IMG/VR virus record: IMGVR_UViG_3300007917_000020
Span: 1 to 37,087 of that record
Length of the DNA: 37,087 nucleotides
Strand: one strand, 5' to 3'
Source: a virus
Both the position numbers and the translations under genes were made by a program. The notes beneath the pieces are model-generated. The model saw only the letters and a list, made by a program, of their open reading frames with translations, made no database searches and had not been told where the DNA came from. Shown here piece after piece: positions 2,453-22,708 of this stretch (within the stretch, counting starts at the first letter, position 1; each line of letters opens with the position of its first letter).

Positions 2453-5400
2453 CTATACTTGTTTCGTCACTGTGACCTCGACCTCAATAGCATCCCAGAT
2501 AGCATAGCCAGAAGACCCCTGTACGCCATTATAGAATGTGAGAGTCGCACCAGCCGATGTAAACAAACTGCTCGGTACAGTTGCCCAGCTTGTCCATCCA
2601 CCTCTTGTTGCACCGGTTGAGAATGATGCTGAGTGATTGTACGGTGCTGGCTTAACCGTCAGACTGCTACCATGGGTACTGTTCTTTCTTCTCAGCCTGT
2701 ATCTGATCGAAATATTGGCCCCACCATTGAAGAAGTTGTAAATCGCACTACTTAGTCTTACCCTACCATCTTTCCACCCCATACTAGAATCCCATCGGTT
2801 CTGTGTAGCTGTAGATCCATAGTAGCTATCAACAGAGGTTGTCCCATGAACAAGTGTATCGAAGGTGGCTGAAGTGAAAGTCTGTGTGAATACTTGACTA
2901 GTAACTGGGGGCGGCGAATAGGCTGATTGAACCTCTGTAATGGTGTCAAATTCCTGTATGTATCCTTTGTTTCTTCCCCATCGTCCACTAGTACCCTTAG
3001 GCACGGTTCCTACAGCCTTTATTGAGCCCCCGTATTGAGCTCTTCCAGCCGCAATAGGGCTTCCTATACAGTCTCTCATCAGAATCCAGGAGTCACCGCT
3101 GGATAAAGCCCCATAACTACAATTAACTACATCTACGGAGTTCATATGTACAATACTTCCATAATCGGCTTTGACCCCTGCCGAACCACCATCTCCGTTT
3201 ATGTTCATGTAGTATACGTACACATTCCTAGAATTGTGGACATATATAGGCTCATTGTACTTCTTAACTGTTCCATACGATGAACTGGATCCGTTTAATT
3301 CTACTCTGGCTGTGCAGTTTCTGACCTCTATAGAACCGGTTATTGTTCTTCCGATCATGTTAACTATTAGCTTGCCTCCGTGTATATTACTTATCAGTAT
3401 GTCTTCAGCCAGATTAGAATACACATTAATAACAACATAGTCCTCTATGAATCTTGTACCCGTAGGGAATATCCAATCTAGAGCATCATTAACGCTATTA
3501 AACGAATACCCTGAACCGACATTAACTGTTACAGCTGGTCTCATCTGAACTACTTTTGGACTTGAGAGCACTTCAATATCAGCATTTGGAATTACTGCCC
3601 CGGCTTCTCCAAAGCTTGCTAGCGTGGTGTCTCCATCTCTAACAGACAGCCCATCATGAGCTATTTGAGTGTTTACCTCCGATGTGGATTTTGCAACGTT
3701 TATTCCATTCTGGTCCAGCTTGATGATACCTTTAGTAATTGTTCTTGTATCAGCTTTACTGAACTCGGTTAAGAAAGTGTTAGTTATAGCACTGGGTGTT
3801 ATTTCCTGTTCAACGCTATGCACCCTAGTTTCAATATCCTCGGGTGCAGGTGTCCAGTCAGTGGCGATGTTGCCTTTTTCCAGCTTGATATGATACTCTT
3901 CAGAAACCACTTTATTAATGAGTGCCTCACTTCTAAATGTAATTTCAATTTCCCCATTCGCCCCAGAGTTTATCATTCTGGGCTCACCAACTGCAACGCC
4001 ATTGGATGCAGAAGATGCGGTAAAGGGATAGGTTCCAAACCATAAATCATATGTGGACACATTTGCTTTTGGAATATCTGTTGATAAAAAATAATTTGTG
4101 TTGGGCTCACCCAAATATTTGTAGCTACGAATTGTTGAGCCTTGTTCGTCTGCATAGTGGCCTGTTGACAGAAGATAGTTGACAAGCAAATTCCTCCCGC
4201 CAACCTGAACGTTGTCATAAAGAGGGGACCAGTTATAATCATTCGGGTTCGTACTTTCAGTCGCAGTTGTCTTATTATGGGCTAATCCCAGGAATCTCTT
4301 TCCTGTGGGGCTGTCACTCATCCCTGAACCAGTATCCGTATCGGCATATTTAACCCATGTGTATGTGGGATTTCCTTGTGGACCTGTAGGCCCTTGGATT
4401 CCCTGATCTCCCTGTGCGCCTTTTATGAGGGACCATGTGTAATCAGCATAAGTCGAAGACTCTGTAGCTGTGGTTTTATTGTAGGCAATACCCATATACG
4501 TCTTTCCATCAGGGAAATTGCTCATACCACTTGTAGGTGTATCAGCGTACTTGACCCAAGTATAAAGGGATGATCCAGAGGGTCCTTGTATTCCCTGGGG
4601 TCCTTGAGGTCCTTCGATAAGACTCCAGTTGTAATCCGTCGCAGTATTGCTTTCTGCCGCGGTTGTTTTGTTATATGCGATACCCATGTACTTTTTGCCG
4701 GTGGGGCTGTCTCCCATTTCAGCTCCTACGGCCGTGTCTGCATATTTTATCCAAGTATAAAGCGTCTGACCTTGAGGTCCCTGTGGTCCCTGAATTCCTT
4801 GGTCACCTTTTATAAGAGACCATGAATAGTCGGTAGCAGTGGAACTCTCGGTGGCGGTTGTCATGTTATAAGCTAAACCGATATAGGTTTTCCCTGTAGG
4901 GCTGTCGCTCATTCCTACCCCTGACGCATTGTCCGCGTATTTTACCCATGTGTATAACGTTTGACCCTCGGGACCTTGGGGACCTTGGATTCCTTGAGGA
5001 CCCTGGGGGCCTTCGATAAGGCTCCATGTGTAGTCGGCCTTGTTTGTACTTTCAGTCGGGCTCGTCTTGTTATATGCTATCCCGATATATTTTGCACCTG
5101 TGGGATCGTCCGTGGGGTTCGTTCCGTCTGCGGAGGCTGAATATTTGATCCAGGTATATAGAGTCTGTCCTTGAAGTCCTTGTGGTCCTTCAGGTCCTTG
5201 ATCTCCCTTGATAAGACTCCAACTGTAGTTTGAATAAACATTGCTTTCGGTTGGTGTGGTTTTATTATAAGCAATCCCTATATATGTCTTTCCTGTAGGA
5301 GTGTCACTCATTCCAGTTGTAGGGGTGTCAGCGTATTTGATCCATGTATAAAGTGTAGGACCTGATGGACCTTGGACTCCTTGAGGTCCCTGAGCACCAG

Positions 5401-7372
5401 TATCACCTTTGTCTCCCTTGATGAGTGTCCATGAATATTTGCTAGGATCAGTGGAATCGGAAGCGGTGAAGTCAGTATATTGTCCGATGTAGGTTTTTCC
5501 GGTGCTGATTATGGTGGAGAATCCAGCTGTTCCGGTGGCATTCGTTGCATATGCTATATGGAAATACGATGCCAGTCCATCTGGACCTTGTGGACCCTGT
5601 ATACCCTGTGAACCATCAGCACCCTTGATAAGAGTCCAGTGGTACATTGCTGGGTTTGAACTATCAGTAGAAACTGAGTCTGTATACATACCAATGTAGT
5701 CACGGCTTGAGTCACTAGTTGAGAAATCCTCTGTGCCATCAGCACTGTTTGCATAAGCTATATGTGTGTAGCTTGAAAGTCCATCTGGCCCCATTGGCCC
5801 CTCGATACCTTGATCACCTTTATCACCCTGAAGACCTTGAATACCCTGAGGTCCTTGTGGTCCTTCTAAGCTGGCAAGCCACTCTTGTATCGTACCATTG
5901 AACCCATTGGCTACTGCTGCTTCATATGCTGACTGACCTTCAGGTCCAGGAGTGAGTTCAATATTTTCAATATCTTCCTCAGTTGCTACATTCTTAGCAT
6001 TTATTTTTAGAGATTGAACATTAAGAACAATCTCTCCATCGTCTAAATTCCAATAGGATTGTCCATCTGGTGATTGAATCATCCCAGCTTTCAAAAGAGA
6101 TGCATTAAGAATTCCTGTCTGAATAAACGAAGCATTAAATTTACCATCTAAAGTCCATGCACTTGGAAATGGTCCTTCAATTCCAGTAGAACTGAACCCA
6201 ATACCACCAAGGCTGATTCTTAAAACATTTTGAGCTGTTTCCTTTGGTATATTATCTAAAATCATAATCTCATTTTCATCCTGGTAAACATGCCCAAGCT
6301 TCCCTAACTGATTGATTATGCTACTTTGTTCCTGTATAAGCTTATTCGCTGTAGAACTAGCCTCAATGGCATGATTAATATCTTCTCTAATCGTATTGAA
6401 AATCCGTCTCACATCTCGATTGAAATTACCGTAGACAAGCTTGGTCACACGTTTTTTATTTGCATCATAAACATAACCTTGTACTCTTGTCGGAACTTCA
6501 ATCTGTTTTGTAACTGTATAGACCGTATCCCCAATATCGAGAGTCTGATCTATATCTGCTTGAACTTCGTAATGAATCTCTGGGTACTTATTTTTCTCAA
6601 GATGCTCTTCACCAAGCAATCTCAATCTATTGATTATTTCATCTTCTGTAAGTTCTTCACCTTCATTTGTTTGAATTTCGAAAGATATGGCTTTAGCATA
6701 AACTTCGTCATATTGGACATCTGAATAAAGGTATACTTCAGGCAATGTGACACCATTTGGACCTATGGGGAGAAGTTTTGTACACACATTACCCCAGTTC
6801 TCATAAACCCTAATACCTTGAAGATTCTTCCCATATCTGATTGTTTCTCCACGATCTAATCCTATTGAAGATAACAGCTTGATTTCCCACTTATTAAAAT
6901 CAAAAAAACCTCCTATACGCTCCTGGGCGATTAGAAAGGCTTCCTGTAATGTTTTTCTAATAATCCTTGCTGTTCCAATATTTGAAACATCAGATGCTGT
7001 GGTGAAAGGGCTTTGTCTATCTGTTCTGGTATTGATCCAATCGAGTAATGCTGATCCATTAAGGCTTTGTGGATAAATATCCTGTATGAGGTATCTTGAA
7101 GTATCAAACGCTACATGTATAGCTCTAAACTTAATGTTTCTTTGTGTAATCTCAGGGTTCTGAATTCTAAATGGCTGCTCTCCTCTAGATTTAGTAGGCA
7201 CGACAATGATATTGTCATGAGCTATGAAATCCTTGTACTTCAGATGCACTTCCACATCTACTTCCCATCCACTAAATCCTTCATTCTTAGTCTCAATGCA
7301 CTTTGAAGGCTGGATGGCTATGTTTCCATTTGTTGTGTAGCTCTTATCATTAGAATTAAATATTTTAATCAT
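2453..7372 (-). CDS. Tail spike / Tal-like minor structural protein with collagen-like repeats and beta-helix
   Basis: Host-recognition protein at the tail tip, about 1639 aa. Residues 1-350 resemble the prophage tail endopeptidase (Tal-like) N-terminus that attaches to the Dit ring. Residues about 475-1055 hold Gly-Pro-Gln collagen-like stretches alternating with eight copies of a roughly 50-residue module (consensus YTWIKYADT, GKTYIGIAYNKTT, YSWSLIKG). A jelly-roll-like segment (GGRNLLVN to YHIKLEKGNIATDW) follows, then a right-handed beta-helix-like region (about 1290-1480) and a C-terminal beta-rich tip. The second ATG (7372) is preferred over the first (7378): AAAGGA is nine bases from it but only three from the first, and the second gives an ATGA overlap with dit. 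Confidence 0.88.
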   Translation of the reverse strand: MIKIFNSNDKSYTTNGNIAIQPSKCIETKNEGFSGWEVDVEVHLKYKDFIAHDNIIVVPTKSRGEQPFRIQNPEITQRNIKFRAIHVAFDTSRYLIQDIYPQSLNGSALLDWINTRTDRQSPFTTASDVSNIGTARIIRKTLQEAFLIAQERIGGFFDFNKWEIKLLSSIGLDRGETIRYGKNLQGIRVYENWGNVCTKLLPIGPNGVTLPEVYLYSDVQYDEVYAKAISFEIQTNEGEELTEDEIINRLRLLGEEHLEKNKYPEIHYEVQADIDQTLDIGDTVYTVTKQIEVPTRVQGYVYDANKKRVTKLVYGNFNRDVRRIFNTIREDINHAIEASSTANKLIQEQSSIINQLGKLGHVYQDENEIMILDNIPKETAQNVLRISLGGIGFSSTGIEGPFPSAWTLDGKFNASFIQTGILNASLLKAGMIQSPDGQSYWNLDDGEIVLNVQSLKINAKNVATEEDIENIELTPGPEGQSAYEAAVANGFNGTIQEWLASLEGPQGPQGIQGLQGDKGDQGIEGPMGPDGLSSYTHIAYANSADGTEDFSTSDSSRDYIGMYTDSVSTDSSNPAMYHWTLIKGADGSQGIQGPQGPDGLASYFHIAYATNATGTAGFSTIISTGKTYIGQYTDFTASDSTDPSKYSWTLIKGDKGDTGAQGPQGVQGPSGPTLYTWIKYADTPTTGMSDTPTGKTYIGIAYNKTTPTESNVYSNYSWSLIKGDQGPEGPQGLQGQTLYTWIKYSASADGTNPTDDPTGAKYIGIAYNKTSPTESTNKADYTWSLIEGPQGPQGIQGPQGPEGQTLYTWVKYADNASGVGMSDSPTGKTYIGLAYNMTTATESSTATDYSWSLIKGDQGIQGPQGPQGQTLYTWIKYADTAVGAEMGDSPTGKKYMGIAYNKTTAAESNTATDYNWSLIEGPQGPQGIQGPSGSSLYTWVKYADTPTSGMSNFPDGKTYMGIAYNKTTATESSTYADYTWSLIKGAQGDQGIQGPTGPQGNPTYTWVKYADTDTGSGMSDSPTGKRFLGLAHNKTTATESTNPNDYNWSPLYDNVQVGGRNLLVNYLLSTGHYADEQGSTIRSYKYLGEPNTNYFLSTDIPKANVSTYDLWFGTYPFTASSASNGVAVGEPRMINSGANGEIEITFRSEALINKVVSEEYHIKLEKGNIATDWTPAPEDIETRVHSVEQEITPSAITNTFLTEFSKADTRTITKGIIKLDQNGINVAKSTSEVNTQIAHDGLSVRDGDTTLASFGEAGAVIPNADIEVLSSPKVVQMRPAVTVNVGSGYSFNSVNDALDWIFPTGTRFIEDYVVINVYSNLAEDILISNIHGGKLIVNMIGRTITGSIEVRNCTARVELNGSSSSYGTVKKYNEPIYVHNSRNVYVYYMNINGDGGSAGVKADYGSIVHMNSVDVVNCSYGALSSGDSWILMRDCIGSPIAAGRAQYGGSIKAVGTVPKGTSGRWGRNKGYIQEFDTITEVQSAYSPPPVTSQVFTQTFTSATFDTLVHGTTSVDSYYGSTATQNRWDSSMGWKDGRVRLSSAIYNFFNGGANISIRYRLRRKNSTHGSSLTVKPAPYNHSASFSTGATRGGWTSWATVPSSLFTSAGATLTFYNGVQGSSGYAIWDAIEVEVTVTKQV
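4215..5950 (-). repeat. Eight tandem modules with GPQG collagen-like linkers inside the tail spike gene
   Basis: The coding DNA repeats in units of roughly 160-190 bp. Each unit encodes a Y[TF][WH]-start module ending in W[ST]LI[KE]G and a Gly-X-Y linker such as GPQGPQGIQGPQG. The six downstream copies are much closer to one another than to the first two (SSYTHIAYAN and ASYFHIAYAT types). Such repeats are prone to copy-number change by recombination, which would alter fibre length. Confidence 0.9.
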
Positions 7373-8028
7373 AGCCATCTATCCTTTCTTATCATTTGAA
7401 TCGTGCATGTTCCGCTGTGAATAACAATAGGATTGTCCCCTGGTATCAGATGTGGGTACTCAAGTCCTATTTCGATATTTCTTGATCTTGATAAACCGGC
7501 ATAAGTTTCTTTCATTTTTTCACAATCAATCTCTACATAGGGATCAGTGAACGAGTACTTGAACCTGATCCCATTTATTGACATGTCTACACTTCCTGAT
7601 CCAGTGAGCTTAATTGTAGGTTTTGAATAAATGTTTCCTTCGTTAATCACACTTGTAGTTACTGAAACATAAGAATCATCATCTTTATACCAAAAAGGAT
7701 CTCTGATATAACTGATCTTTGCTCTTTTCAATGTTACAAACCTATTTACGTCAAATCCATCATAGAAATATACTTTAGAAATTCTTCCATTATATTCAAG
7801 TTCGCCTTCTCCATTAAGCCACGAAAGGATTTCATCAACCCTAGTAGCATCGATAATCTGTAAATCCAATTCCTTATGCACCTGCGCATATCCTAGTTGA
7901 ATTAATTCTGTTCTATCGCTACCATCAATGGAAATTCCTTCAAATCTTTGGGTAGCTCTAGCAATAAAATCCTCTTCTCTGACGATAACTTTCATCTGTT
8001 CACTTGAAATCCCTCTAAATTTAAACAT
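7369..8028 (-). CDS. Distal tail protein (Dit, Sipho_tail family)
   Basis: 219 aa protein expected to form the hexameric ring joining the tail tube to the tip. The N-terminus (MFKFRGISSEQM, then the QRFEGISIDGSDR region) and the central DPFWYKDDD stretch match the siphovirus tail component family (Sipho_tail, Dit). It lies between the tape measure and the tail spike, the standard position. It overlaps the spike start by ATGA and abuts the tape measure stop (shared base 8028). Confidence 0.88.
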   Translation of the reverse strand: MFKFRGISSEQMKVIVREEDFIARATQRFEGISIDGSDRTELIQLGYAQVHKELDLQIIDATRVDEILSWLNGEGELEYNGRISKVYFYDGFDVNRFVTLKRAKISYIRDPFWYKDDDSYVSVTTSVINEGNIYSKPTIKLTGSGSVDMSINGIRFKYSFTDPYVEIDCEKMKETYAGLSRSRNIEIGLEYPHLIPGDNPIVIHSGTCTIQMIRKDRWL

Positions 8029-13884: not shown

Positions 13885-14652
13885 TTACTTACCTCCATAA
13901 TATAAATCCCATTCGGATTTTGCGCTTGGTTCAGTGACATTAGTTGTTCTGAGTTCTTCATTTTCTCTTTCAAGTTGTTTCAGTCTTAGAATCGTTGAGT
14001 GTAAGGTCTTGGCTTCAATTGACTGTTTCACTTTAGGTTCAGCTTTACTTGTTGCTATTCCCCACTCTATTGCTTCATCAGCAGTGATCCAGGTCTCTTT
14101 ATCCATAAGCTCTTTGATCTCTTCATTTTTTAGATTTGATGATTGATTGTATATCTCAATAGATGACTCAGCCATCTTTCTAAGGTCTGATGCTGCTTTT
14201 TCAAGTTCATTAGCATTTCCAGCTGTATGAACCCATGGATTATGCCACATCAGAAGTGATCCTGTATTCATAACCCTGCTCTTTCCAGCCATGAAAATAA
14301 CAGAAGCGATGGAACAGGCAAACCCATCATTGATAGTTGTGACCTCTTTATCGCTCGATTTAAGCATGTTATAAATGGCAAGACCTTCTGCTACTTCTCC
14401 ACCATATGAATTGATATGGACCTCGATTTCAGGTGTTTCCACTGCATCTAATTCACTTTTAAAAGAGTGTGATGAAACATCATTCTCAAACCACCTCCAA
14501 GAAGCGATGTCTCCATATATACTTAACTCTGTTTTCTGATCGTTGACTTTTTTAAACTGGAAATATGGTTTGTCTGATGGTTCCTGTAAAGCACCACTTC
14601 TTATGCTTGATGCATCAAGAGTTGCAATATTCATCATTACTTTTCTATTCAT
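13885..14652 (-). CDS. Prohead maturation protease, ClpP-like (S14 family)
   Basis: About 255 aa. The Clp protease fold runs from the IEVHINSYGGEVAEGLAIYN segment through GFACSIASVIFMAG, where the serine after Cys is the likely nucleophile, and LLMWHNPW, whose His is the likely base. ETWITADEAIEWGIA closes the core. It cuts scaffold and capsid delta domains in the prohead. The ATG at 14652 is preferred to the GTG at 14664: AAAGGGGG lies about 10 bases upstream of the ATG but touches the GTG. The C-terminal coiled part (KQLERENEELR) may act as scaffold. Confidence 0.9.
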   Translation of the reverse strand: MNRKVMMNIATLDASSIRSGALQEPSDKPYFQFKKVNDQKTELSIYGDIASWRWFENDVSSHSFKSELDAVETPEIEVHINSYGGEVAEGLAIYNMLKSSDKEVTTINDGFACSIASVIFMAGKSRVMNTGSLLMWHNPWVHTAGNANELEKAASDLRKMAESSIEIYNQSSNLKNEEIKELMDKETWITADEAIEWGIATSKAEPKVKQSIEAKTLHSTILRLKQLERENEELRTTNVTEPSAKSEWDLYYGGK

Positions 14653-15820
14653 CTTTCTTCTCACCCCCTTTCAATTCTTGCTCAGTAGTATAATTTTTAG
14701 ACCAGTGCCTTTCATCTGCTCCATCGTCTGAAGTTGGAAGCATATTGAATATTTCACGTAGTTCGTTATGGGTAAATCCAATCCCATAGAGCTTTTCAAG
14801 CGCTACAGCACTATCTAAGACATCTCTATGATTGATTTTTGTGGCATCAATGAAAATCTGCTCGCCTCTTAGATATGCCTCCTTACGAATAAGCTTTGCG
14901 TTAAGTTCATCACCAATAAGCTCCAGGAATACTTCTATCCCTGTAGTGATCCAGTCATTCATGGCATTTGATTTCTCTGTCGTTTTTCCAAGGAAAATAT
15001 CAATTGGAATATTCATCCCAATAGCTACCGATTCCATAGTGGCATTTAATGTCTTGAGAATATCTTCAGCATTCTGCCCTGTTGCCTTACCTATTTCTTC
15101 GAGCTCTTCTCCGGATTGAAGTGGTACTATAGCATTGGGACTTGAAAACACCTTCTCAAATAACTTTTCAACATAAAGCTGTGCTTTTGTTTTAATCTCT
15201 GTATTTTCTTCCTCTGTTGGGGCAGCTCCTATTCCAGTTCTTGCTACAGATGTACCTGAATGAAACACCAGTTTCTTACCATTATTCTGTTTAAAGTGAT
15301 TTACCGCTGCATCCATAATGCTACTCATTTCAGAGTAAAAACTCCTCATGGTATCACTAATGGTCATATTCTCAATCGTGAGATAGATCACATCTCCCAT
15401 AAGATATTTTTTTCTAGTGTTAAGATCATTAATCACAACATCGTAAAACTCCCATGGTTTATAAGCATAAATATTTTTCTGAAATGTATCTGCGATGAAT
15501 AGCTCATCCAAATACCCTTGAACTATAAGCACTTCTCCTTCCTGAAACAGCTTCGTAATAGCTTTATTCCAGAAATGAGTGGCATTCATGTTCTGATTGG
15601 GTCTTATATTGAGTGCATAATATAGATCATTCTTAACCTGCTTCTGTTTCTTCCCATCCACCTTCACCCTTTTGAATTCACACTTACTTATGACGTTCGC
15701 ATATAGCGTTATTCCTCTTTGAATCGCAAGTTCATTAAGTTTAAGTTTTACCGCATCCCATGTCAGACTCTGCAGTTCAACGTAATTTGTCTTTCCGTGT
15801 AAAAAATCTAAAATTCCTAT
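14645..15820 (-). CDS. Portal protein, HK97 family, with AUA start codon
   Basis: 391 aa dodecameric portal through which DNA is packaged. Core: DLYYALNIRPNQNMNATHFWNK, EVLIVQGYLDELF, GMNIPIDIFLGKTTEKSNAMNDW and NAKLIRKEAYLRGEQIFIDAT. The usual portal N-terminus is encoded upstream of the first ordinary start (GTG at 15667): GILDFLHGKTNYVELQSL and LAIQRGITLYANVISKCEFK are in frame and family-typical. The frame opens after a TAG at 15821-15823, and the only sensible start is the ATA at 15818-15820, eight bases after AGGAGG. A mutated ATG (ATG to ATA) or a sequencing error is the alternative. It overlaps the protease gene by eight bases. Confidence 0.88.
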   Translation of the reverse strand: MGILDFLHGKTNYVELQSLTWDAVKLKLNELAIQRGITLYANVISKCEFKRVKVDGKKQKQVKNDLYYALNIRPNQNMNATHFWNKAITKLFQEGEVLIVQGYLDELFIADTFQKNIYAYKPWEFYDVVINDLNTRKKYLMGDVIYLTIENMTISDTMRSFYSEMSSIMDAAVNHFKQNNGKKLVFHSGTSVARTGIGAAPTEEENTEIKTKAQLYVEKLFEKVFSSPNAIVPLQSGEELEEIGKATGQNAEDILKTLNATMESVAIGMNIPIDIFLGKTTEKSNAMNDWITTGIEVFLELIGDELNAKLIRKEAYLRGEQIFIDATKINHRDVLDSAVALEKLYGIGFTHNELREIFNMLPTSDDGADERHWSKNYTTEQELKGGEKKDE

Positions 15821-15828
15821 CTAAATCA

Positions 15829-15834
15829 CCTCCT
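15829..15834 (-). promoter_or_regulatory. Ribosome binding site that fixes the portal start
   Basis: AGGAGG (minus strand), followed by TG and overlapping the terL stop. It is eight bases before the ATA codon, the same spacing as between the tape measure AAGGAGG and its ATG. No ATG, GTG or TTG is in frame within reach. Confidence 0.85.
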
Positions 15835-17476
15835 ACAAATAGGGATTGCTATCAGGATTCCACTCTGGAACATCTAATCTAGACCGCTCTGTCATTGCAT
15901 GCACCATAGCCATAAACCCATCGTTCTTTCTTAATTTAGGCTCTATCTTTATGAAAGTCTTATTACCCTTACCATCTCTCTTTACGCCAGTGTTCTGTGT
16001 GTACCAGCGCATACATGGATCATCACCATAGATCATGTGCCCATTCGCATAGATCACATCCATAAGTGGTGCTAGCTCATTATGTGTGTATCCACCAGAT
16101 CTTACATGAACCACTTCTCCATGAGGATTTTCCTTGGATACAACCGTTAACCCTCGTTTCAAAAATCTTTCACTTATGGCTTCCCACCTGAATTTATCCA
16201 TTGCAATAATCTGGACATTAAAATAGACTGCGTTCTCAAAGAACCAGTCTAAAATCTCTTCAGGATCTATTGTTGGTGTTTTTACAATCGTGAGAAGACC
16301 GTTATTTTCCCATTCTGATAATGGTGGTTTTATGGACTTGAAAAAAGGAGAGTTCTTGTTAACCCAAGTATGCTGTTTCCAGCAGTAATCATCCCCATTC
16401 TTCCAAAGAAATCCGGCTGAAGCGAAGTCGTTTAATTCAGCATAATCTATACCAAATATCGCTAATGACCGATTTGATTTTGGTAATGGTCTATTTGTTT
16501 TCATTACCGTTTCCCATGTACAGAAAGCAGCCTCAGCATCTTCTTTTGGAAGGTTCATCCTCTTAGTTATAAAGTCTGGCCTGAGATGTGGCATATCTTG
16601 CATTTTACCGTAATCTTCTTCAATTTCTCTTTTGAGAATTGGCATATATGGTAACGATGGATTAGCCTTCACCCACATCTCCGGATGATCTAGTTCATCT
16701 TCAGAATCAAGCTTATAGATAATCGGAATAAGCTTGGATTTTGGCAGCTCCCCTTTTAATCTCTTTTCTGATAATGCTTTATAATCATCCAAAGGTCCTT
16801 CTCTAACATATCCGTCTGTAGTTATGATTACCACTCTCGGATTCTTGACTTTTCCTTTACCACGCATATGAACGTTAATATTCAAGTAGTCCTCATACTG
16901 ATGTAACTCATTAAATATAATCATTCCTGGTCTTTTACCGTCTTTTGTTTTACTGTTTGATGTATTGAAAGTGATCTTTGAATGAGTTTTCCTGTTTACG
17001 ATTATCTCTATGGTCCACCGAAAGAATCTCTTCATTTTCTCTTTATGATCTTCCATTCTGTTATAAATAATCTCCGTCAGACCACTTGCCTGTTCTTCAC
17101 TATTGGCCACAACATCAATATTGTAGTTCTTTATTCCATGATAATGCGTTGTGAGGAAATCTGCTAACGGTGCCATGAATCCATCTTTCCCATTTCCTCT
17201 ACCTTCCATGATGAAGAATTCATCAAAGGTAGTAAACATCTTGGATTCGTCTTCATAGAAGAAGAATAGTGCATAAATGAACTTCTGAAATGGAAATAGC
17301 TCATAGTAGTATTTTTGAGTGTAATCGAGGCATTTCTGATATGTATCTACATCAAAATACTGGTCTGATTTAAGAAGTGGTTTCACAATATTTTGAATGA
17401 GAAGCTTTATTTCTCGTGATTTAGGTTCCTTGCTTTTTATGTAATCATCAATTTCTTTACAATAAATCATCTTCAT
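15833..17476 (-). CDS. terL: Terminase large subunit
   Basis: 547 aa packaging motor and nuclease of the Terminase_1 type. The ATPase part has a Walker A-like EGRGNGKD (about 91-98) and Walker B-like GMIIFNE (about 185-191), followed by the VVIITTDG coupling strand. The nuclease part has the RNase H-like acidic residues in FGIDYAE (D about 345), AMDKFRW and KNDGFMAMVHA near the end. It starts at ATG 17476 (a TTG at 17479 is adjacent), overlapping terS by 20 bases, without a clear ribosome binding site, so translation is probably coupled. Confidence 0.94.
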   Translation of the reverse strand: MKMIYCKEIDDYIKSKEPKSREIKLLIQNIVKPLLKSDQYFDVDTYQKCLDYTQKYYYELFPFQKFIYALFFFYEDESKMFTTFDEFFIMEGRGNGKDGFMAPLADFLTTHYHGIKNYNIDVVANSEEQASGLTEIIYNRMEDHKEKMKRFFRWTIEIIVNRKTHSKITFNTSNSKTKDGKRPGMIIFNELHQYEDYLNINVHMRGKGKVKNPRVVIITTDGYVREGPLDDYKALSEKRLKGELPKSKLIPIIYKLDSEDELDHPEMWVKANPSLPYMPILKREIEEDYGKMQDMPHLRPDFITKRMNLPKEDAEAAFCTWETVMKTNRPLPKSNRSLAIFGIDYAELNDFASAGFLWKNGDDYCWKQHTWVNKNSPFFKSIKPPLSEWENNGLLTIVKTPTIDPEEILDWFFENAVYFNVQIIAMDKFRWEAISERFLKRGLTVVSKENPHGEVVHVRSGGYTHNELAPLMDVIYANGHMIYGDDPCMRWYTQNTGVKRDGKGNKTFIKIEPKLRKNDGFMAMVHAMTERSRLDVPEWNPDSNPYL

Positions 17477-17801
17477 CAACTACTTTAGGCTTCTTGAGAT
17501 CAAGATCAGCAAGAATCTTAAGCATTTGTGCATTCACTTTCACTAAATTCTGGACTGACTCATTTGGCTTATCAGCCATAATTCCATTTCCAGTCATAAC
17601 CTTGAATCTGATGCCTTTTTTCTCGATATCTTCCTGCAGCTCATTCTTTAATTTTGCAAATTCCAGGTAGTCATCAATAATATCTTCATAAAATCTTCCT
17701 AGCATTCCATTTTCATCTAGTTGATCCAAAAGGTCCTTTTTAATTTCATCCATGATTTCTTGTTTTTCTTTTGAAATCACTCGCTTTCGATACCTCGCCA
17801 T
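17457..17801 (-). CDS. terS: Terminase small subunit, P27 family
   Basis: 114 aa DNA-recognition subunit of the packaging motor. The acidic helical body (EYLEFAKLKNELQEDIEKKG-like region) and the C-terminal KVNAQMLKILADLDLKKP stretch resemble P27/phi105-type small terminases (ILxxLxLxP). It starts at ATG after an AAGGGGG site, is first in the structural operon and overlaps terL. Confidence 0.85.
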   Translation of the reverse strand: MARYRKRVISKEKQEIMDEIKKDLLDQLDENGMLGRFYEDIIDDYLEFAKLKNELQEDIEKKGIRFKVMTGNGIMADKPNESVQNLVKVNAQMLKILADLDLKKPKVVDEDDLL

Positions 17802-21242: not shown

Positions 21243-22075
21243 TACTTCTCCTCCAATAAATCTCTGAGCAATTTACTTTTATTCTGCTGTTTTTCCATTC
21301 GGAGACTTGATTTGTCATTTAAAATTGGTGTGCACATTTCTAGTATCCTGTCATGGGTTCTATCTCCATACCGCTTCTTGAGATCTGCAATGGTGAAGTT
21401 TGTAGTGATGATCAGTGGTAAGAGATTTCTGTACCTGGAATCAATAATGCTGTACACTCTCGAAATGCTCCATTCAGTCTTTTGCTCAGTCCCTAAGTCA
21501 TCTATGATCACTAGGTCTGCATTTGCAAGATTTCTTAATATAGCATCTTCTCCCTCTTGTCCCCACTTACTGTATGATTCCTTGATTCTGTCGAGCAATG
21601 AGTTGATAGATACGCATACTACAGGAATGGACCTTTCTAGCAAATCATTTGCTATTGCTACAGCAGCATAAGTCTTTCCGTTTCCAGGATTTCCATAAAA
21701 CAGTAATCCAACATTCTCAGTTTTCATCTTCTGGAAATTATCAGCATATTTTCTTGATATGTTGAATATTTTCTCATTTCCTCGAGATCTATCCCATGAC
21801 TCAAAGGTCTTTCTTCTAAAATTCTCATCCATTAGAGAGTTTTTCATTACTCTGTCAAGTCTCATCTGTTTACTAACCTGTTCTACTTTTAGGGTTTCTT
21901 CTTCTATTTCTTTTTTTCTACATGAACAGATCACTTTGACTTTAGTTTCTCTACCGAAGAGAGTGATGATTTTATTCAGTGGTTCTTTACATTTTTCACA
22001 AAACTCAATCTCAGAATCCAATTCCCTCTTCTCTAAGTTTTGCAGCTTCTTCATCGACTCCGCTAGATTTTCCAT
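21242..22075 (-). CDS. DnaC/IstB-type helicase loader
   Basis: 277 aa AAA+ ATPase that loads the replicative helicase. N-terminal zinc-binding module: CEKC (C26, C29) and CSC (C50, C52). Walker A GNPGNGKT (128-135), Walker B LVIIDDLG (188-195), sensor IITTNF, arginine-finger region GDRTHDRI. It overlaps the end of the DnaD-like gene by 65 bases and the Hjc-like gene by TAATG. No dedicated helicase is seen, so it probably loads the host DnaB-type helicase. Confidence 0.93.
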   Translation of the reverse strand: MENLAESMKKLQNLEKRELDSEIEFCEKCKEPLNKIITLFGRETKVKVICSCRKKEIEEETLKVEQVSKQMRLDRVMKNSLMDENFRRKTFESWDRSRGNEKIFNISRKYADNFQKMKTENVGLLFYGNPGNGKTYAAVAIANDLLERSIPVVCVSINSLLDRIKESYSKWGQEGEDAILRNLANADLVIIDDLGTEQKTEWSISRVYSIIDSRYRNLLPLIITTNFTIADLKKRYGDRTHDRILEMCTPILNDKSSLRMEKQQNKSKLLRDLLEEK

Positions 22076-22694
22076 TATTTACCCCCTTTCGCTTACTACC
22101 ATTTCTGACTACGCCTTTTAGATAGTTGACTGTATATTTCGTATTCTCAGCACATATCTTTATTCCGTCTATCACTTTTTCTGTTCCATAGTGAATAACA
22201 AGGTCATCAATTGACGATGCTAACAATGGTGTTATTGGCATACACCATAATTTTTCAAGCTCTGTATATACATACTTATTATGTTGTTCTGTTATTATGT
22301 TATTGTTAGTGTTCAGTTGTTGTTCACTTGTTGTTCGTTTGTTGTTCAGTTGTTGTTCAAAGTGCTGTTCATTTTGCTGATAGCTTTTCCAGTTAAGTAT
22401 TGATATAAGTCTGTTTCGGGGTGTTGTTTGTTGTTCAATCTGTTGTTCGATTTCGAAGGTTTTTAAAATTCTTTGTACCTTCGACTCAGAAACCTTTAAA
22501 TTGGCACTTATTGACTTTCTTCCGGTGATTAGCTGCCCCGGTCTTAGGGTTCTTCTCTCCCCTTCAAAGACGACATCATAATCAGTATGAGTAGCATTGA
22601 GCAACAAATATATCCACACTGCTAAGTGATCATTGTCTTTACAGACAACAGGATTATCTAGTAATTTCCGATGTAAGCTGATCCATCCATCAAT
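22011..22694 (-). CDS. DnaD-domain replication initiator (replisome organizer), probable AUU start
   Basis: About 227 aa origin-binding protein. The N-terminal winged helix begins at DGWISLHRKLLDNPVV, typical of phage replisome organizers (M-x-GWI-x-LHRK), and the C-terminal DnaD-like domain covers about 135-200 (ITPLLASSIDDLVIHYG, TKYTVNYLKGVV). The middle is Gln/Asn-rich because it is encoded by an iteron array. Start: AGGAGG (22703-22708) lies eight bases from ATT (22692-22694). The in-frame GTG at 22701-22703 shares a base with the AGGAGG and cannot use it. An AUU start is therefore likely. Confidence 0.85.
   Translation of the reverse strand: MDGWISLHRKLLDNPVVCKDNDHLAVWIYLLLNATHTDYDVVFEGERRTLRPGQLITGRKSISANLKVSESKVQRILKTFEIEQQIEQQTTPRNRLISILNWKSYQQNEQHFEQQLNNKRTTSEQQLNTNNNIITEQHNKYVYTELEKLWCMPITPLLASSIDDLVIHYGTEKVIDGIKICAENTKYTVNYLKGVVRNGSKRKGVNNGKSSGVDEEAAKLREEGIGF
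22281..22450. repeat. Iteron array: candidate phage replication origin
   Basis: TTGTTGTTC repeats with strict 11-bp period, four in a row at 22317-22360, with degenerate copies on each side (22306-22316, 22361-22371) and further copies at 22281-22289, 22428-22436 and 22440-22448. Eleven is not a multiple of three, so the period cannot come from the protein; it is one helical turn, as in initiator binding sites. Location inside the initiator gene matches lambda O and SPP1-type origins. Confidence 0.75.
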
Positions 22695-22702
22695 CTCAAC
22701 CA

Positions 22703-22708
22703 CCTCCT
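22703..22708 (-). promoter_or_regulatory. Ribosome binding site that decides the initiator start
   Basis: AGGAGG eight bases before ATT at 22694. Same spacing as for the portal and tape measure genes. Confidence 0.7.

Follow-up and report, generated by a model that had tools for sequence, protein, structure and literature searches.

In S. aureus, reporters with the AUA starts of ccpN and citZ yield about 10-30% of what AUG gives; infC likewise starts at AUA, and conserved non-AUG start sites are accompanied by extended Shine-Dalgarno sequences (SDs) (PMC13009471). The virus described here (IMG/VR record IMGVR_UViG_3300007917_000020, positions 1 to 37,087; this whole stretch of 37,087 nucleotides is referred to as the window) very probably uses the same codon, judging from the sequence and its comparisons, as the real start of its portal gene, which in this bacterial virus encodes the ring by which DNA passes into the head. 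Regarding annotated phages, DNA relatives of the window were only distant. The features of the portal region, all on the minus strand, are listed below.

15833..17479 (-), large terminase gene (terL); PF20441, PF03354, PHROG 9
15835-15833 (-), terL stop codon TAG, overlapping the portal SD; stop-to-ATA gap 12 nt
15834-15829 (-), AGGAGG, 8-nt spacer to ATA
15825..15834 (-), extended SD AGGAGGTGAT, 10 nt, its AGGAGG 8 nt before ATA
15829-15827 (-), GTG embedded in the SD, upstream of the in-frame TAG
15823-15821 (-), in-frame TAG immediately 5' of ATA, between ATA and the embedded GTG
15820-15818 (-), putative AUA start codon (ATA); no other candidate start from the in-frame TAG to codon 52
15665..15667 (-), GTG at codon 52, the start chosen by a standard gene finder; no SD; rejected
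14645..15820 (-), HK97-type portal gene, 391 codons from ATA; TIGR01537 (E 2e-35), PF04860 (E 5e-20), PHROG 12
13885..14664 (-), ClpP-type head maturation protease, the gene after the portal; PF00574
12731..13882 (-), major capsid protein, ATG start; PF05065

Anatomy of the portal start

The portal belongs to the HK97 type by its matches to TIGR01537 (residues 28-363, 122.3 bits, cut-off 112) and PF04860 (residues 32-359, 72.5 bits, cut-off 39) and by the gene order terL - portal - protease - major capsid. Elsewhere in the window (2453-7378, minus strand) a 1641-aa protein is encoded in which many collagen-like GPQGPQG blocks alternate with a repeated YTWIKYADT...WSLIKG unit.

Across the terL-portal junction the minus strand reads ...CCC TAT TTG TAG GAG GTG ATT TAG ATA GGA ATT TTA GAT TTT TTA... 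A sequence-only reading had noted an ATA straight after a TAG and eight bases past AGGAGG, and this arrangement was confirmed at 15820-15818. The SD lies at normal spacing and, with 10 nt, is the longest among the 34 window genes examined; the mRNA structure at the portal start was no more stable than that of shuffles (z 0.56). No usable in-frame ATG, GTG or TTG is present: the TAG stands directly 5' of ATA, and the first canonical start of the portal frame is the GTG at 15667 (codon 52), which has no SD. Both portal profiles begin before codon 52 (residue 28 in TIGR01537, residue 32 in PF04860), so that this GTG, lying inside the conserved profile, cannot start a whole portal; the same reading had correctly placed the portal N-terminus upstream of every in-frame ATG, GTG and TTG. 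Entry by frameshift from another frame was considered and rejected, the other frames having no start codon before the conserved N-terminus.

Start codons of related portals

The portal protein of the window is 76-80% identical to those of three relatives, namely L004 (a Eubacteriaceae MAG, 80%), L002 (Alkalibacter mobilis, 77%) and L003 (Alkalibaculum sporogenes, 76%). When the related portals were aligned at the start position, a check proposed by the sequence-only reading, the two closest relatives (L004 and L002) had ATA at the homologous position and the third (L003) had TTG; none had ATG. L004 shows AGGAGG, 8 nt and ATA; in L002 AGGGGG precedes an ATA in the same place, and 6 nt upstream of this ATA an in-frame ATG overlaps the extended SD; in L003 the SD-embedded GTG is out of frame. 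Synonymous sites are near saturation in comparison with the relatives, yet ATA is retained in L004 and L002, and the three ATA loci cluster together beside L003 (quick tree, support 93). Both L004 and L002 carry, in addition to ATA, an in-frame GTG or ATG no more than 9 nt upstream, and the GTG of their SD is in frame and open to ATA (GTG AGA TCA ATA in L004, GTG ATG GTA ATA in L002); because of this GTG the two loci are no proof when taken alone. In the window the TAG cuts the GTG off from ATA, leaving ATA only. When 391 genomes from the class to which L004's genome belongs were searched by pattern, the one ATA portal identified was L004 and the one TTG portal L003; ATA gave one additional match and TTA none.

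IMG/VR was scanned with the pattern GGAGGTG-N4-7-ATA-GG..T.TT.GA, and of the 26 stretches obtained, 16 were portal genes whose start position is occupied by ATA. Ten of the long ORFs from the scan were compared with Pfam: eight matched PF04860, L043 was above the cut-off for a Mu-type portal and L026 was just below it. Loci without an in-frame ATG, GTG or TTG within four codons upstream of ATA were considered unambiguous. This applied to five of the 16 portals (L025, L042, L026, L038 and L043), representing two portal families and four lineages, as L038 and L043 share their N-terminus and were counted as one. The nearest in-frame canonical start of L038 is an ATG 19 codons upstream, and the other four have none back to an in-frame stop. 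In the remaining 11 loci, the SD contains, or is closely followed by, an in-frame GTG or ATG (in L022/L035 a GTG two codons upstream of ATA); taking all 16 as proof was therefore rejected, and only the five were counted.

With TTG in the same pattern, at least 120 stretches and at least 98 portals were found, 96 of the latter unambiguous. GTA, CTA and TTA gave 13 stretches and no portals, ATT, ATC and ACG one portal each, every one with an embedded in-frame GTG, and AAG and AGG gave none; unambiguous portal genes in this pattern were found for none of these eight control codons. If the codon were merely an arbitrary isoleucine codon, the chance of finding ATA in the window and in the four other unambiguous lineages would be 3.3e-4 (ATA versus ATT/ATC, based on each gene's own isoleucine codon usage). 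On the tree of one portal family the ATA state requires at least five changes, ambiguous cases included. Recurrence of ATA at the portals of several distantly related viruses looks like a real trait and not like a sequencing slip. A spacer of 8 nt brings the GTG of GAGGTG into frame; it was found in nine of the 16 ATA portals versus two of the 98 TTG portals; this suggests that part of the ATA portals use that GTG, even though it lies inside the SD. As some of the genes with an 8-nt spacer may start at GTG, the main claim rests on the unambiguous set.

Among several hundred SD-backed starts (574 of them canonical) in portal-centred loci, no non-portal gene with an unambiguous ATA start was found; in the other strict ATA candidates of these loci an ATG follows at once. 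On the minus strand of L197, near 3132-3156, a 231-codon ORF has an ATC separated from AGGAGG by 6 nt, and the closest GTG in frame lies nine codons upstream; this is a possible AUC start of a non-portal gene. For the DnaD-like helicase loader of the window (22011-22703, minus strand; PHROG 2514), the best SD-backed start is an ATT at 22694, which AGGAGGTG precedes by 8 nt; the SD contains an in-frame GTG (22703), and the geometry is that of the portal junction. The portal gene of Listeria phage LP-HM00113468 (L190, 1418-1466) is annotated from an internal ATG; 16 codons before it stands a TTG in the same frame that is backed by an SD (AGGAGGTGATATATTG).

Alternative and preferred explanations

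That the ATA arose through faulty sequencing or assembly, or that a normal start codon was recently mutated in this phage alone, is very unlikely, even though the window is a single virus record and ATG to ATA is one transition: L004 and L002 have ATA in separate assemblies at 77-80% protein identity, and ATA recurs in other lineages with no unambiguous TTA, ACG, AAG, AGG, ATT or ATC equivalents. Random error is disfavoured because the abundant TTG starts would have yielded TTA, which was not seen; since the nearest relatives have ATA or TTG and never ATG, the one-off ATG-to-ATA change or read error that the sequence-only reading had kept as its fallback loses ground. It also appears improbable that the ancestral start was the GTG in the SD (15829-15827), with ATA internal, the TAG at 15823-15821 a nonsense mutation and the portal broken or weakly rescued at ATA. 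Such an origin would agree with the frame being open from that GTG in L004 and L002 and with the over-representation of 8-nt spacers among ATA portals; however, the GTG, being part of the SD, lacks an SD of its own at a workable distance, the two codons that follow it vary (ATT TAG, AGA TCA, ATG GTA), it is out of frame in L003, ATA portals with spacers of 7 and 9 nt have no embedded in-frame GTG, and the remainder of the portal gene is under strong constraint (pN 0.13-0.15, pS 0.75-0.90 against the three relatives).

Codons 2-51 are true coding sequence under purifying selection like that remainder (pN 0.15-0.17, pS 0.76-0.88 against the same relatives). This speaks against a naturally short portal translated from GTG 15667, as do the missing SD and the loss of conserved residues 28-51 from TIGR01537 that such a start would entail, and although this GTG is the first canonical in-frame start, its use is extremely unlikely. 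Readthrough or recoding of the two TAGs as sense codons, which would fuse terL and portal, draws on the frame that both genes share in the window, L004 and L002, and can practically be dismissed, considering that the two frames differ in L003, that no tRNA gene was found in the window and that many other window genes end in TAG.

AUA initiation, as put forward by the sequence-only reading, is well supported by the position of the codon, the SD, the lack of alternatives, the ATA of the two closest relatives and the recurrence in other portal lineages. The explanation preferred here, considered highly likely as a whole, is that the portal gene is intact and would be translated from the AUA at 15820-15818: the extended SD (AGGAGGUGAU) would be exposed at its overlap with the terL stop and hold the 30S subunit, and the initiator tRNA would thereby accept a weak AUA 8 nt downstream. 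The sequences themselves show the anatomy, the selection on coding, the ATA that relatives have at the homologous position and its recurrence elsewhere. Initiation would occur with fMet at AUA, terL termination would be coupled to portal initiation, and the portal yield would be far below that of an AUG start. Where an upstream ORF was within reach, its stop lies 12-17 nt (HK97-type) or 21-36 nt (Mu-type) before ATA in the other ATA portals, and the TTG portals mostly have gaps of 11-15 nt; the terL stop-to-start geometry of the window is like that of the TTG portals and would fit termination-reinitiation, with the SD keeping the subunit at the weak codon.

A reduced portal yield from AUA is likely, and its tuning of portal copies, suggested by the sequence-only reading, is plausible by analogy with published AUA reporters and with the common use of UUG at the portal gene. 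The portal is needed in about 12 copies per head, versus hundreds of capsid subunits, and a lower output would suit a 12-copy ring. More tentatively, weak start codons at Firmicutes phage portals may have been selected to limit portal synthesis, usually as UUG, with AUA plus an extended SD recruited several times independently in at least two portal families; as IF3 discriminates against AUA, synthesis could then follow host physiology. This broader proposal is regarded as possible rather than probable.

Comparison with known weak starts

With its very probable AUA start, the window portal adds a new and recurring case to a known class of weak starts, UUG already being common at the portal gene. 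No report of an AUA portal start was found in the open-access literature searched, which is not proof of absence. Natural AUA initiation, described for a few host genes, would come to include structural genes of phages, and its recurrence at one structural gene would allow a clean test of whether the choice of start codon sets the stoichiometry of a virus part. An AUA start would also explain why a gene finder would shorten the window portal by 51 residues; the usual ATG/GTG/TTG set of gene finders omits AUA, and such portals would be annotated in truncated form.

The window portal resembles S. aureus infC, ccpN and citZ in its putative AUA start and, like infC and ccpN, has an extended SD at normal spacing; the non-canonical start of ccpN is conserved in relatives (PMC13009471), and the two closest relatives of the window portal share ATA but with a GTG or ATG nearby. 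The S. aureus AUA genes are host regulatory or metabolic genes whose starts were demonstrated by ribosome profiling and reporters (PMC13009471), whereas the window portal is a structural gene of a phage, read from its sequence only. In the relatives' genomes, infC has an apparent start at ATC (L260, L261) or ATT (L262), 9 nt after GGAGG, so that host lineage is probably capable of initiation at near-cognate codons. These infC genes have, like the window portal, a near-cognate codon without a canonical start nearby in frame, and differ from it in being host genes with an apparent AUC or AUU start, for which IF3 autoregulation is known from E. coli. The UUG HK97-type portals of Listeria phage B025, Psychrobacillus phage Spoks and Bacillus phage vB_BhaS-171 represent the same gene, located after terL and with an SD followed by a weak start; they differ from the window portal in that UUG is a standard start accepted by gene finders.
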